DNA of 64,000 nucleotides from Anaerolineaceae bacterium (lineage in GTDB: Bacteria > Chloroflexota > Anaerolineae > Aggregatilineales > Phototrophicaceae), in the NCBI GenBank assembly GCA_007693385.1, contig REDR01000063.1:1-64000 (forward strand), written 5' to 3'. The notes under the pieces are model-generated. The model was not told the origin of the DNA. It ran no database searches and worked only from the letters and a program-made list of their open reading frames with translations. Numbering within the stretch: the first letter of the stretch is position 1; each line of letters opens with the position of its first letter. Positions 50,678-59,309 of the stretch are shown piece after piece. The translations under genes were made by a program, and so were the position numbers.

Positions 50678-51136
50678 ATGAACGTAAAAGAGGTTATGAC
50701 ACGCTCACCCGTGACCATCCGCCATGATGCCACGTTGGGCGAAGCGCTAAGCCTGATGGAAGAAGTCGGTTGTCGGCATCTTCCGGTTCTTAGCCGCGAT
50801 AATCATTTAGTCGGTATCATCAGTGATCGTGACTGCCGTCTGGCGTTGAATTCGCCACACGTCCTGCGCGAACGCTGGCAGGATGAAGCCATCGTCCACC
50901 AGACCACAGTCGCCGGTATCATGTCGCCCGCGCCGATCATCGTTGAGGGCAGTTGCGCCGCTTATGAGGCCGCCCGCTTGATGCTGGAACACCGCATCAG
51001 CGCTCTGCCGGTCATGCGTGGCGAGACGCTCATCGGCATTGTGACCACCAGTGATATTATGATGGCCTTCATCTCGTCGCAAAAGCGTATGAATTGCGTA
51101 CCCAACGGTAACGGCCATCCGGCTAAGCCGGCTTAG
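50678..51136 (+). CDS. Two-CBS-domain protein
   Basis: 152 residues made of two CBS motifs: VKEVMTRSPVTIRHDATLGEALSLMEEVGCRHLPVL and VAGIMSPAPIIVEGSCAAYEAARLMLEHRISALPVM. CBS pairs bind adenosine nucleotides and usually sense energy status; a stand-alone pair often regulates another protein. The track starts at TTG 50654, but ATG 50678 has AAGGAG upstream. It is divergent from the NarL-type regulator and its 3' end overlaps the AI-2E permease gene by 14 bases. Confidence 0.9.
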   Translation: MNVKEVMTRSPVTIRHDATLGEALSLMEEVGCRHLPVLSRDNHLVGIISDRDCRLALNSPHVLRERWQDEAIVHQTTVAGIMSPAPIIVEGSCAAYEAARLMLEHRISALPVMRGETLIGIVTTSDIMMAFISSQKRMNCVPNGNGHPAKPA

Positions 51137-52346
51137 GCTCTGGTATCATCTCATCTTCCTGATCTGCCTCATCCATTGGCTTTAGTGATAATTGCCCGTG
51201 TGAGTCTTCGACTAGCCGGACGCGGTGTTCGCGTTTGTCTAGCGCATCATACACATAAAGCTCTTGCCACAGGATGACCAGAATCGCCAGAATGGGCACG
51301 GCGAGGATAATCCCGAAAAATCCGAGCGTGGCCGCCGCGATCAACTGGAACGGGAACACGATGCCCGCCGGTATGTTGAGCTGGTTTTTGATAACATTAG
51401 GCGAGACGATCTTGCCGTCTATCTCGCTGATGACCCAGTATAGCACACCCGCCGGTATAATCTTCAGTGGATCGGCGACGGCGGTGAAGATCAATATCGG
51501 CACGAGGCCGATGTAATAGCCGACATTCGGGATGAACGTCGCTAACCCGGCGATGACGCCCAGCGCGATCACGTTGGGGATGTTCAGCACGAGGCCATGC
51601 ACGATGATGATGGATGTGCTGGTGAACACGATGGACACCGCCAGCGCTCCCATCCAACTGAGTACCGCCGTGCGTATCTTGTTGATAATCTGCACGACGC
51701 GGGCTTCGCGGCTTTTGGGCACCAGCGCGATGATCGGGCGGTAATACACCATCGGATCGAACATCAGATAGCTGGTGATGATGAAGATGAAAAGCGCGTT
51801 GGCGATCAAACTGCCGACGAAACTGCCGATGCCGCCCAGCACCGGAAGCGCCGACTGCACGAAGCGCCCGACGTTCAACTCCACCGCGCTCCCGCGCCCC
51901 TCCAGCATGTCCTCTCCGATCACTTCATCCAGCGTCGTCTCGAACAGGGCGCGGTAATCCTGCACGGTGAATTCCGGTAGATACTGGCCGATTTCCGGAC
52001 GATCTGTGCGGAATCCGTCGTAATCTTCGACAATCTGCTCGATAGCGGTGGGCAGGCTCTCGATCAAGTCGCGGGCTTGCGCGATGAATGGCGGGATGAC
52101 CACGAACAGGATCAAGCCGATAGCGACCAGCATAGAGGCCACCGTCGCCAGCATTGACACGCCTTTATTCAAGCCGATGCGCTGGAAGCGCAGGATGAGC
52201 TGGTGCAGGCCGATAGAAAGCACCCAGCAGGTGAACACGATCAACAGGATGCCGGTTAGCTCGATGAGTGCGGTGATGGCGAAGAAGGTGACGATGATGA
52301 TGGTGATGATGGTGACGGCGCGTTTGACGAACTCTCCATATGTCAT
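51123..52346 (-). CDS. AI-2E family permease (TqsA/YdiK-like)
   Basis: 407 residues from the chosen ATG, with about eight membrane helices, for example ITIIIVTFFAITALIELTGILLIVFTCW, MLATVASMLVAIGLILFVVIP, VIALGVIAGLATFIPNVGYYIG and LIAAATLGFFGIILAVPILAILVIL. Family members include AI-2 exporters and Na+/H+ antiporters, so the substrate is uncertain. The track starts at 52421, but ATG 52346 has a GGGGGAG site 9 bases upstream. The 3' end overlaps the CBS gene. Confidence 0.88.
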   Translation of the reverse strand: MTYGEFVKRAVTIITIIIVTFFAITALIELTGILLIVFTCWVLSIGLHQLILRFQRIGLNKGVSMLATVASMLVAIGLILFVVIPPFIAQARDLIESLPTAIEQIVEDYDGFRTDRPEIGQYLPEFTVQDYRALFETTLDEVIGEDMLEGRGSAVELNVGRFVQSALPVLGGIGSFVGSLIANALFIFIITSYLMFDPMVYYRPIIALVPKSREARVVQIINKIRTAVLSWMGALAVSIVFTSTSIIIVHGLVLNIPNVIALGVIAGLATFIPNVGYYIGLVPILIFTAVADPLKIIPAGVLYWVISEIDGKIVSPNVIKNQLNIPAGIVFPFQLIAAATLGFFGIILAVPILAILVILWQELYVYDALDKREHRVRLVEDSHGQLSLKPMDEADQEDEMIPEPKPA

Positions 52347-52515
52347 ACGTAGGTTCTCCCCCCTATGGCTTCGCTGATCGGTGCGCGATGTCATCATCGT
52401 CACAGGCAGACCAGCGAGCAAAACAACCTATGCTCTATTGAACCGCAAAACACGCCGCCGCGCAATCGGTTAAAAACGCAGGGGCGCGTTTTAGATCATC
52501 GGCAATATCTTAAAC

Positions 52516-52577: not shown

Positions 52578-54353
52578 CTAACCCTCGTCTTCGTCGTCGG
52601 GCGGCTCGGGCACGCTCAGGCCGGGCAGATCAGGCACGCCGGGGCGGGCGTCGTCGTCATCGTCGTCCGCGTCACCGGGCAAGCTGAGGTCGGGCAGGGC
52701 GGAGTCATCCGCTTCTGGTATTACGTCCTCTTCGACTGTATCCGGCAACAGCGCGTCTAGCTCTTCGGCATCGTCTTGATCCGTCGCGCAACGGAAGCCC
52801 GTCCATAGGAACTGCTCGTCAGGGCGCAGGCTGAGGCGATGCACCGAACGGGCGAAGAACGGCGGCGTATTCCACGATCCACCACGCAAGGTTTTCTGTA
52901 CACCTGCGGGCGGGCCGGTGGGATTCTCGACCAGTCCCCGCGCCTGTTGTTGCGGGTAGTAGTCGGAGAAATACCAGTCGTTGACCCATTCCGCCAGATT
53001 GCCGCCCATGTCGAACACGCCGAACTCGCTTTGATTCAGCGGATTCGATCCGGCGGCGTGCGGCGTGGTCGGGCGGTTTTCACCCGCGCTGACGTTGGCC
53101 GCGTTAGGGTTCCATGTGTTGCCCCATGGGTAGATGTTATTGCTGATGCCGCGTGCGGCGCGTTCCCATTCGGCTTCGGTGGCTAGGCGGCGTCCGATTG
53201 TCTCGCAATATTCCCGCGCCCCGTACCACGACACGCCACCAACCGGCAAGTCAGATTGGAATTGCGGGTTGCCGAGATCATAGTTCTGGCTATCGAACTG
53301 AATGAAGCTGAATTCGTTCTCGGCGGTGGTCAGCACGCACGGGAAGCCGCCGCATCCATCGCGGTGACTGCCCGGCCCGAGATAGTCCAGAAACGCCAGA
53401 TATTGCTCGTAGGTGACTTCGGTCTGCTCGATGAAGAAGTCGTCAACGAATACCTGATGCGGCGGGAAGGAGTCTTCGGCGGAGTTGCGCGTACACGCCC
53501 GCGCATCACGCTCGACACACTCGGTCACGGCGGTGTTGATCTCGTTGATGTCGGTGCCCATGGTGAACTCGCCGCCGTCAATGGCGACCAGTGGCGAGGC
53601 GAGGATGAGCAGGCGTTCCAGCGCCGGATCAAGCGCTTCGGCCTCAAAACGCTGGCCTTCGTCGGGCGGCGCTAAGCCGGTGACGCCAGTCGGGGGCGCT
53701 GTGCCTGTCTCGTCCGTGTCATCCAATCCGGTGATCGATTCCGGCGATTCGTCTTCTTCCGTTGTGTCAGCCGGCGCGGGCGGTTGAACCGGTGAGCGCG
53801 GCGTCGATGTCGGTATCTCCACGACGGCGGGCTGTTCCTGCACCTGTGCGGCCTGTGTTCCGGCGATGGACTGCGCGACAACCGCTTCGATGGTGGCCTC
53901 TATGTCGATGGGTTCATCGGTAGGCGGCGGTGGCGGGTCGGTGTTCGTCGGTTGCTGGACGGCTTCCTGCGTCGGCGGAACGACGGCGGCCTCCTCCTCA
54001 GTGGGGGGCACCGGCGTCGGCTCGGGTTGCGGCTCGGTGGGGACGACATCCGTCGGCGGCGGTTGCATCTGCTCCTGCAACTGCGCGACTGCCGCCGCGA
54101 TACCGGCGTCTATCGTGGCTTGAATGTCGATTTCGGCGGCGGGTTCCTGCGTCGGTAGCTCCGTCGCCTGTGCGAGCGGCTGTTCTTCGTCGCCGCTACT
54201 GAATTCCAGCACGCCTAGCGTCAGCAACGACAGCATGAAAACCGCCGCACAGCCGAAGCTAAATGTGCCGCCAATGATAATCCATTGCCACGCGGCGCCG
54301 CCGCTTCTAGCTTGCGGTCTACCGCCTACTGTCCCATATGATGGTCTTGTCAT
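52578..54353 (-). CDS. Membrane-anchored SUMF/FGE-fold protein lacking the catalytic Cys pair
   Basis: 591 residues. A membrane helix lies at about 25-47 (WIIIGGTFSFGCAAVFMLSLLTLG). It is followed by a long disordered linker rich in Pro, Gln, Glu and Thr (about 55-245), an FGE-sulfatase-type domain (about 250-545) with GGEFTMGTD, EVTYEQYLAFL, GGVSWYGAREYCETIGRRL and YPWGNTWNPNAANVS, and an acidic tail (ADDDDDD). The usual catalytic cysteines after GGSW are replaced (RGGSWNTPPFFARSVHR), so formylglycine-generating activity is unlikely and a binding role is favoured. AGGAG precedes the ATG. Confidence 0.82.
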   Translation of the reverse strand: MTRPSYGTVGGRPQARSGGAAWQWIIIGGTFSFGCAAVFMLSLLTLGVLEFSSGDEEQPLAQATELPTQEPAAEIDIQATIDAGIAAAVAQLQEQMQPPPTDVVPTEPQPEPTPVPPTEEEAAVVPPTQEAVQQPTNTDPPPPPTDEPIDIEATIEAVVAQSIAGTQAAQVQEQPAVVEIPTSTPRSPVQPPAPADTTEEDESPESITGLDDTDETGTAPPTGVTGLAPPDEGQRFEAEALDPALERLLILASPLVAIDGGEFTMGTDINEINTAVTECVERDARACTRNSAEDSFPPHQVFVDDFFIEQTEVTYEQYLAFLDYLGPGSHRDGCGGFPCVLTTAENEFSFIQFDSQNYDLGNPQFQSDLPVGGVSWYGAREYCETIGRRLATEAEWERAARGISNNIYPWGNTWNPNAANVSAGENRPTTPHAAGSNPLNQSEFGVFDMGGNLAEWVNDWYFSDYYPQQQARGLVENPTGPPAGVQKTLRGGSWNTPPFFARSVHRLSLRPDEQFLWTGFRCATDQDDAEELDALLPDTVEEDVIPEADDSALPDLSLPGDADDDDDDARPGVPDLPGLSVPEPPDDEDEG

Positions 54354-57278: not shown

Positions 57279-58400
57279 TCAGCCCCCTAGCCGCCCCAGT
57301 AGATAGCCGATGACGAATACGACGACGGCCAGCACGCGCCAGATTTGCGTAGCGCGATCAACCGGCGCCATGCTCTCCCCGTAGCGCCGCCGATACGCCC
57401 GCCGGTAGAAGAAGCTCAGCACCGCCACCAGCAGGACATCGTGGAACCAGTAGCCCCATGCGGTATACGGGATTTGCGGCTGGTCATGACGCGGTGCGGG
57501 GATATCGCCCAATTCGACGGACGCCAGCGCCACATCATCGCCCGTGTTTTCGGTCTGCGTTATCGCCGTGCCATCGCTGTTGATGATCCGCGAGCCGTCA
57601 ATGCCCTGTCCGGTCAATGTCGCTTTGCGGGCGTCCCATGCGCGGAGCAGGAGCGATGGCTGGATGAACGCCGCCGGAAGCAGGCCGAGCGCCGCGCCCG
57701 TCGCCTCTGACGCGAAATCGCCACTCAGGGCGCTATGCACCACCGGCGCACCGAGCCACGCCGCCTGCCTGTCCATGTCGCCGCCGAACGGCGCATCGAC
57801 GCCGTGATACAGCAGACGCCCCGATTGCAACGGATAGGCTTCGTCGTCCTTCAGTTGGATGTGCAGGCTATCCGGGCGCGGCATCGCGGAGGCGATCAGC
57901 AGGAGGTCAACCCGTCCGGCGTAGCGTTTCCACAGGCGCGGATGCGCGTAATCCCAGCCGATCATCAGGCCGATTTTGCCGAGCGCGGTCCCGGCGATGG
58001 TCGGGCGGTGGCCTTCGCGGAATATGGCGCGTTCCCAGCCGAAAGCATACGTTTGATCGTAGCGCCAGAAGCGCCCCTGCGGACTGCACAGCACCATACT
58101 GTGATAGATGTCGTCGTCGTCGCGCAATAGAAAAGCGCCAGCCACGTATACGCCGTAGTTGGCGGCGGTCTGTGCCAGCCAGACGGCGGTTTTGCCGTTG
58201 GGCGTCTCCGCCAGATCATACGCGCTTTCATCCAGATGATAGCCGGTGTTGAACCGTGCCGGAAGCAGGATCAACTGAGCGCCGTTTTCGGCGGCGTGGG
58301 CGACGATGGCTTCGGCGCGGTGCAGGCGGACATCGACGCTAGCCGGTGCGATGTCCATTTGTGATGTCGCTAATTTTAGGGTGCGCGTTTCGGTATACAT
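57279..58400 (-). CDS. Nitrilase-superfamily membrane protein with substituted catalytic residues
   Basis: 373 residues. A carbon-nitrogen-hydrolase fold is seen in LKLATSQMDIAPASVDVRLHRAEAIV and QLILLPARFNTGYHLDE (about 40-57), but the usual catalytic Glu of PExxxxGY is Ala (LPARF). The catalytic Lys region reads RYDQTYAFGWE, and the catalytic Cys of ICxD is Gly (LMIGWDYAHPRLW). After the domain, two hydrophobic segments (LLVAVLSFFYRRAYRRRYG, VLAVVVFVIGYLLGRLGG) form a C-terminal anchor. It is probably a non-catalytic, membrane-tethered relative. GGGAGAG precedes ATG 58400, preferred over the track start at 58418. Confidence 0.8.
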   Translation of the reverse strand: MYTETRTLKLATSQMDIAPASVDVRLHRAEAIVAHAAENGAQLILLPARFNTGYHLDESAYDLAETPNGKTAVWLAQTAANYGVYVAGAFLLRDDDDIYHSMVLCSPQGRFWRYDQTYAFGWERAIFREGHRPTIAGTALGKIGLMIGWDYAHPRLWKRYAGRVDLLLIASAMPRPDSLHIQLKDDEAYPLQSGRLLYHGVDAPFGGDMDRQAAWLGAPVVHSALSGDFASEATGAALGLLPAAFIQPSLLLRAWDARKATLTGQGIDGSRIINSDGTAITQTENTGDDVALASVELGDIPAPRHDQPQIPYTAWGYWFHDVLLVAVLSFFYRRAYRRRYGESMAPVDRATQIWRVLAVVVFVIGYLLGRLGG

Positions 58401-58525
58401 GCTCTCTCCCGTCGCCATATGCGGATGATATTCAGTGTAGCAGACACCGGACGGTTTGACACCTCAGCGCGGCGTTTACGTATACATGCTAGCCGGTGTG
58501 TGGCTTAGCGCTTGTTATGAAGCGC

Positions 58526-58554
58526 TCAACACGTCCGGCGCGATATGCTAGGAT
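58526..58554 (+). promoter_or_regulatory. Candidate promoter of the Arf-like GTPase gene
   Basis: TCAACA (58526-58531) and TAGGAT (58549-58554) with a 17-base spacer, each four of six matches to consensus. Confidence 0.35.
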
Positions 58555-58598
58555 ATAAGCGGGCGCATGGCCTGAATGTTTGGATTAAGGGGCGAGAG

Positions 58599-59309
58599 AT
58601 GAGCAATGTTTTCGACGTGGTAGTGAACGTCCTTGTCGGCACGATTAGCACCGTTACCGGCACCGTTCGCGGCAGTGTGTCGATGCTGGAAGATTTCTTT
58701 TATGTGCGCGTGGGCGGCCTGCCTTTCATCGTGTTAGGTTCGCGGCAGGTGGGTAAATCGACGTTGATCGAGTGGCTACGCAAGAACATGAAGAGCATGG
58801 AAGGCTTCGAGCCGGAGCCAACCGCCGCCGGTGGTGACGAGATACCCGACTTCACATCGAAGATCGGCGATACGCGCATGAAGCTAAAAGCGATGCGCGA
58901 TGTCGGCGGTGAGTATGCTATGTGGGAGACGGACTGGGTGGAACTTTTCCGCGAGGCGCAACCACGCGGCATCATCTTCTTGATGGATCATACCGACGTT
59001 ATTCAGCAAAAAGACGCGCTGAATTTCGTGTTGCAGATGATCGACGACGAACCCGCCGCCGCCCGCAACTTGAAAGCGTTTTTCATCATCGTCAATAAAT
59101 GCGATGTGTGGGAAGGCATCACCACGCTGGACGACATCATGCTGAATTATCGCAACGAGCAAAAACGACTGGTCGCGCAATCGGAGCGACTCGGCTACAA
59201 ATACGCGATCACATACGGCAGTTTGTATACTGGCAAGGGCGTCAAGGCGATGATGAAAGAATTCTTCAACGTGCTACGCCCTAGCCCGCGCAAGAAGCAA
59301 GACTTATAG
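58599..59309 (+). CDS. Arf/SRPRB-like small GTPase with N-terminal hydrophobic helix
   Basis: 236 residues from the chosen start. The N-terminus is hydrophobic (VFDVVVNVLVGTISTVTGTVRGS), perhaps a membrane contact. G1 is VLGSRQVGKSTLIEWL, switch II is AMRDVGGEYAMWETDW, G4 is IVNKCDVW, and the fold is that of Ras-like GTPases. DVGG followed by a polar residue is typical of Arf, Sar1 and SRPRB, with Glu where the catalytic Gln usually sits. Its role is unknown. GGGGCGAGAG precedes the ATG. The next gene, a membrane protein, follows 56 bases later. Confidence 0.83.
   Translation: MSNVFDVVVNVLVGTISTVTGTVRGSVSMLEDFFYVRVGGLPFIVLGSRQVGKSTLIEWLRKNMKSMEGFEPEPTAAGGDEIPDFTSKIGDTRMKLKAMRDVGGEYAMWETDWVELFREAQPRGIIFLMDHTDVIQQKDALNFVLQMIDDEPAAARNLKAFFIIVNKCDVWEGITTLDDIMLNYRNEQKRLVAQSERLGYKYAITYGSLYTGKGVKAMMKEFFNVLRPSPRKKQDL

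Follow-up and report, generated by a model that had tools for sequence, protein, structure and literature searches.

A membrane-tailed nitrilase-fold protein from an Anaerolineae bacterium that lacks the catalytic Glu, Lys and Cys: a probable pseudoenzyme derived from intact relatives

Pseudoenzymes occur commonly across many enzyme superfamilies. In the nitrilase superfamily, nitrilases and amidases are recognized by a Glu-Lys-Cys catalytic triad; Lnt, a membrane-associated member, combines a periplasmic domain with several membrane helices at its N-terminus. A natural homolog without the nucleophile has been described in mycobacteria, where the Lnt homolog BCG_2279c / Rv2262c-2261c has Ser in place of Cys and did not substitute for active Lnt in a knock-out (PMC3850990). 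Our literature search for nitrilase pseudoenzymes returned nothing relevant besides this Cys-to-Ser homolog. Here, we describe a protein with a more extensive loss, encoded in a stretch of 64,000 nucleotides (the window) from a metagenome-assembled Anaerolineaceae bacterium (GCA_007693385.1, contig REDR01000063.1).

The reading frame is intact (Table 1), and translation more likely begins at its second ATG (58400): the N-termini of orthologs (MPRTLK...) line up with this Met, and the motif GGGAGAG lies directly 5' of it; a reading made earlier from the sequence alone (the sequence-only reading) had placed the end of the gene at the same codon. The codon-position composition (GC1-3 0.67/0.48/0.76) is like that of the neighbouring genes. 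Residues 15-185 of the protein match PF00795 CN_hydrolase (E 6.9e-24, 85 bits against a curated cut-off of 23.2), and the match ends at profile position 182 of 256, which points to a divergent second half. An AlphaFold2 model built from 28 family sequences reached a pLDDT of 90.8 and a pTM of 0.89, and the best Foldseek matches in the PDB come from the nitrilase superfamily (E 7e-20, TM 0.82 normalized to target length), with the hyperthermophilic nitrilase 3ivz and Pyrococcus horikoshii PH0642 as the nearest solved structures and the C146A mutant of the P. horikoshii amidase with bound glutaramide (6ypa) at the top rank. Profile match and model thus both assign the protein to the nitrilase fold, as the sequence-only reading had held for everything outside the catalytic positions.

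Table 1. Features of the nitrilase-fold gene and its neighbour in the window
Feature	Position	Strand	Remarks
CN_hydrolase-fold pseudoenzyme ORF (predicted)	57279..58418	-	379 aa, intact; probable start ATG 58400, giving 373 aa
Ala54, codon GCA, for catalytic Glu	58257..58259	-	Glu in 76/79 family members
Gln122, codon CAA, for catalytic Lys	58053..58055	-	Lys in 76/79 members
Glu129, second active-site Glu	58032..58034	-	kept in 79/79 members
Gly154, codon GGC, for nucleophile Cys	57957..57959	-	Cys in 75/79 members
Long C-terminal helix 320-349	57372..57461	-	from model; KD at most 1.28, moderately hydrophobic; family-wide
Transmembrane tail helix 357-377	57288..57350	-	KD 1.99; helix 355-378 in model
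Neighbouring gene, 170 aa	56536..57048	-	homolog (64% identity) near intact ortholog in G003 (L234)

When the protein is aligned to solved nitrilases with HMMER, Ala54, Gln122 and Gly154 fall in the columns of the Glu, the Lys and the Cys, so that the catalytic triad of a nitrilase or amidase is absent. The motifs on which the sequence-only reading had built its case (LPARF, RYDQTYAF and IGWDYAHP) are all present; they correspond to LPELF, KYRKIH and MICFD in 3ivz, and the last of these reads MIAFD in the C146A mutant 6ypa. Relatives were collected from 200 related genomes, 33 of which contained full-length members, and from a scan of 84,980 species genomes that added members beyond the first alignment. 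The relatives from the 200 genomes are well separated from generic CN-hydrolases (>179 against <75 bits), and the members added later are nearly all named as Chloroflexota, mostly as Anaerolineae. The scan of genome contigs relies on short conserved peptides and missed one of the degenerate members (L033), so members of this kind are probably under-counted. Column scoring, as the sequence-only reading had proposed, found the Glu, Lys and Cys intact in 68 of 72 members, or 75 of 79 distinct members once class-wide sequences were added. The four losses are the window protein (A/Q/G), L033 (A/Q/G), L083 (the gene also listed as L020; Q/Q/G) and L061 (also listed as L010; E/K/G). The same triple loss in L033, and C-terminal helices across the family, are also what the homolog search suggested in that reading turned up. 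L033 and L083 come from one genus, which is not that of the window, and L061 has kept Glu and Lys while its Cys is Gly, a possible first step of loss. The closest intact relatives of the window protein, L066 and L057, share 41-43% identity with it, are of equal length and have the tail. Because the window protein falls within a group of orthologs that retain the motif, the catalytic columns are not misaligned, and on this alignment evidence the triple loss is real and derived. The sequence-only reading had counted homologs with the residues against itself; such homologs are the rule, yet the pseudoenzyme reading stands, since the loss arose inside a family of enzymes, the activity of the homologs being itself presumed.

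The same reading had excluded a near miss of the sequencing kind on the grounds that the Gly codon is GGC. This argument fails, as one T-to-G substitution turns TGC into GGC, and the other two codons are also one base off (GCA from GAA, CAA from AAA). Since each change is one base, the codons alone would leave room for a sequencing or assembly error, and the species is represented by one assembly. Such an error is nevertheless scarcely credible, because three separate codons are affected together and two further genomes, including a single-contig assembly (G027), lack the catalytic residues at the same three positions.

The membrane tail proposed earlier is supported by the last helix of the protein, which is clearly transmembrane. 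The description of a two-helix anchor holds in this part and is not supported for the preceding long helix, whose hydropathy peaks well below (Table 1), and the idea that the anchor had been added to the fold is not borne out, as the family as a whole has C-terminal helices, its intact members included. With a cut-off of KD >1.6 for the C-terminal part, 34 of 72 members pass, and several intact members end before the last helix; the anchor is therefore not tied to the catalytic loss. The stretch N-terminal to helix 357-377 is rich in Arg, and by the positive-inside rule the nitrilase domain probably sits on the cytoplasmic side. We also considered an Lnt-like acyltransferase and rejected it, as the protein has no TIGR00546 match and no hydrophobic N-terminal helix.

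In a maximum-likelihood tree computed without the catalytic columns, the four losses all fall in one starred clade of 23 members. L061 is sister to the intact L089 (support 100/99), L033 and L083 are sisters (100/100), and the window protein groups with the intact L066 and L057 (94/95) and with L066 alone at 93/46. Parsimony gives three loss events, two of which are forced by starred branches. When the four losses were constrained to a single clade p-AU was 0.086, which falls short of a firm rejection, and it was 0.31 when only the window protein, L033 and L083 were joined. Long branches could also have affected the topology, and we therefore put the number of events at two to three: at least two separate losses appear to be needed, and the window protein, L033 and L083 could still share one origin.

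The surroundings of the gene were compared by clustering the neighbouring ORFs at 71 loci and in the window, and no shared neighbour of the family emerged; the second-largest cluster consisted of ORFs overlapping the family gene itself on the opposite strand. The product of the neighbouring 170-aa gene has no Pfam match. In G003, a homolog of it and one (54%) of the membrane-protein gene at 51123-52421 are likewise found next to the intact ortholog, in rearranged order. As this locus shares its neighbours with the window, the gene is probably orthologous by position to that of an intact enzyme rather than an additional copy. A scan for promoters and terminators gave nothing above chance. Elsewhere in the window, a divergent small-GTPase-like gene with a sub-threshold Arf match (58545-59309, +), not conserved beside the nitrilase-fold gene, is followed by a gene for a LiaF-TM-like membrane protein (also sub-threshold), and the gene at 52578-54353 (-) encodes a PF03781 sulfatase-modifying-factor domain, preceded by a hydrophobic helix at the N-terminus and a long linker rich in Pro, Glu and Thr. 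In the genus of L033 and L083, the dead gene lies a few tens of bases downstream of a predicted membrane protein (L229:5281-6666, L230:7758-9149) with a signal peptide, a weak CARDB match, one transmembrane helix and a cytoplasmic part. An upstream gene common to L229, L230 and L231 was rejected, since that of L231 is unlike the other two and had matched the combined profile as one of its seed members.

How strongly the protein is still constrained bears on the possibility that the gene is simply decaying, the enzyme having become unneeded in the lineage and the active site lost so recently that stops have not yet gathered. The four longest paths among the 23 members are those of the loss members (1.73, 1.58, 1.53 and 1.37; the next is 1.26), and the longest is that of the window protein, whose terminal branch alone amounts to 1.43 changes per site. 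Such fast evolution fits relaxed constraint, and so do the lack of a conserved neighbour or partner and the patchy presence of the gene, which was found in 23 of 98 genomes of the taxonomic family and is therefore dispensable. Among 66 columns in which the intact members show at least 90% conservation, 12 are altered in the window protein, 13 in L083, 16 in L033 and 5 in L061 (intact median 2, maximum 6). The non-catalytic changes of the window protein at conserved positions include Y62L, N106H, P125A and P179M; P179 is altered in all four loss members (M, A, M, L) and N106 in three, indicating that other positions loosened along with catalysis. Against decay, the window protein has kept 54 of the 66 columns despite its long terminal branch, the ORF is intact, tail helix included, and has a normal codon-position composition, and all three catalytic positions are hit, which is beyond what a few random changes would give. 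In addition, the pair from the other genus indicates that the dead form can last under constraint. L033 and L083 lie in loci with the same order of about ten genes, and although synonymous sites have reached saturation between them (4-fold identity 0.24, pS 0.83), the proteins are still 47% identical. Provided that the residues were already missing in the ancestor of the pair, as parsimony indicates, selection has maintained the dead form. This pair supplies the best comparative support for such selection, while for the lineage of the window, which has no near relative with the same loss for comparison, we infer it. We regard decay as the main rival explanation, though a rather unlikely one.

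More doubtful still is an enzyme with another chemistry, in which Glu129, Asp156 or new residues such as His106 would act in the same pocket. It is true that Glu129 and Asp156 are kept in every aligned member, the dead ones included, and that N106 has become His in both the window protein and L033. However, neither the nucleophile position of the loss members nor the residues immediately next to it offer a Ser, Thr or Cys (IGWD, LGWD, VGWD), positions 54 and 122 carry the inert residues Ala and Gln, and the residues that replace the conserved P179 are unlike one another.

We therefore favour, as the reasonably probable reading, a former carbon-nitrogen hydrolase that has lost hydrolysis and now serves as a non-catalytic membrane protein that binds a ligand or acts as a scaffold. 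The starting point would be an amidase-type enzyme of the tail-anchored Anaerolineae family. Hydrolysis would have been lost when Ala took the place of the general base Glu, Gln that of the catalytic Lys and Gly that of the nucleophilic Cys, with the fold, the membrane tail and most of the remaining conserved positions retained. As a non-catalytic protein it would now be anchored on the cytoplasmic side of the membrane, where its emptied pocket may bind a small amide- or carboxylate-like ligand, or where it may be a scaffold. According to their PDB titles, solved structures of near relatives in which the Cys has been mutated contain ligands (6ypa, C146A with glutaramide; 4izv, E41Q/C145A with acrylamide). 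In the proposal of the sequence-only reading, a pseudoenzyme that binds a ligand or partner at the membrane, the fold, the triple loss and the tail can be read from the sequence, as can descent from intact enzymes; we infer the absence of activity, the topology and the binding, and the loci offer no conserved adjacent partner gene. The genome contains four CN_hydrolase genes, of which one alone belongs to the tail-anchored family; a role as regulatory subunit of an active sister was rejected because the genome has no intact copy of the family.

Another protein of this genome, encoded outside the window, belongs to a separate family in which the same residue is replaced. This paralog (L002; G000:C104:4118-4951, +) represents proteins of 278-281 aa in this genome, and its family (L131-L205, L235-L243) was found class-wide at 47-80% identity; of the 298 genomes sampled from the class, 167 have a match at E 1e-45 or better. 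All 71 class-wide sequences have both Glu and Lys, and the Cys column holds Gly in 69 and Ser in 2; nine members from a phylum search also have Gly, the Glu column being uncovered in one, and the next relatives (40% identity or less) carry Cys. Judged by these columns, nucleophile loss is more strongly conserved in this family than in that of the window protein. A predicted threonine-aldolase-like gene, named from its sequence, lies near the gene in 6 of 20 loci. With the Cys-to-Gly replacement nearly invariant across the class, one may ask whether a nitrilase fold can also work when it has no covalent nucleophile. It is possible, and we put it forward only tentatively, that a membrane-tethered amidase turned more than once into a non-catalytic binder, by change of Cys to Gly first and of Lys and Glu thereafter, and that nucleophile-free nitrilases are a standing functional class here. 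The graded series of E-K-C, E-K-G and A/Q-Q-G inside one family makes the order of loss, the shift in constraint and the new role directly testable.

Compared with the described systems, the protein shares with PH0642 (1j31, 6ypa) and 3ivz the nitrilase fold, similarity over residues 15-169 and the second active-site Glu, and differs from them in the absence of Glu, Lys and Cys and in an extra C-terminal helix and transmembrane tail. Like Lnt it is a membrane-associated nitrilase domain, whereas its membrane part is a single C-terminal tail and it does not match the Lnt model. The mycobacterial BCG_2279c / Rv2262c-2261c is likewise a natural nitrilase-superfamily homolog without the nucleophile, but there the Cys alone is changed, an intact Lnt is present in the same genome and the architecture is that of a true Lnt. 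Most similar is the intact tail-anchored Anaerolineae CN_hydrolase family of L066 and L057, which resembles the window protein in length, tail and sequence and, at the G003 locus, in its neighbours, and differs from it in the intact Glu-Lys-Cys.
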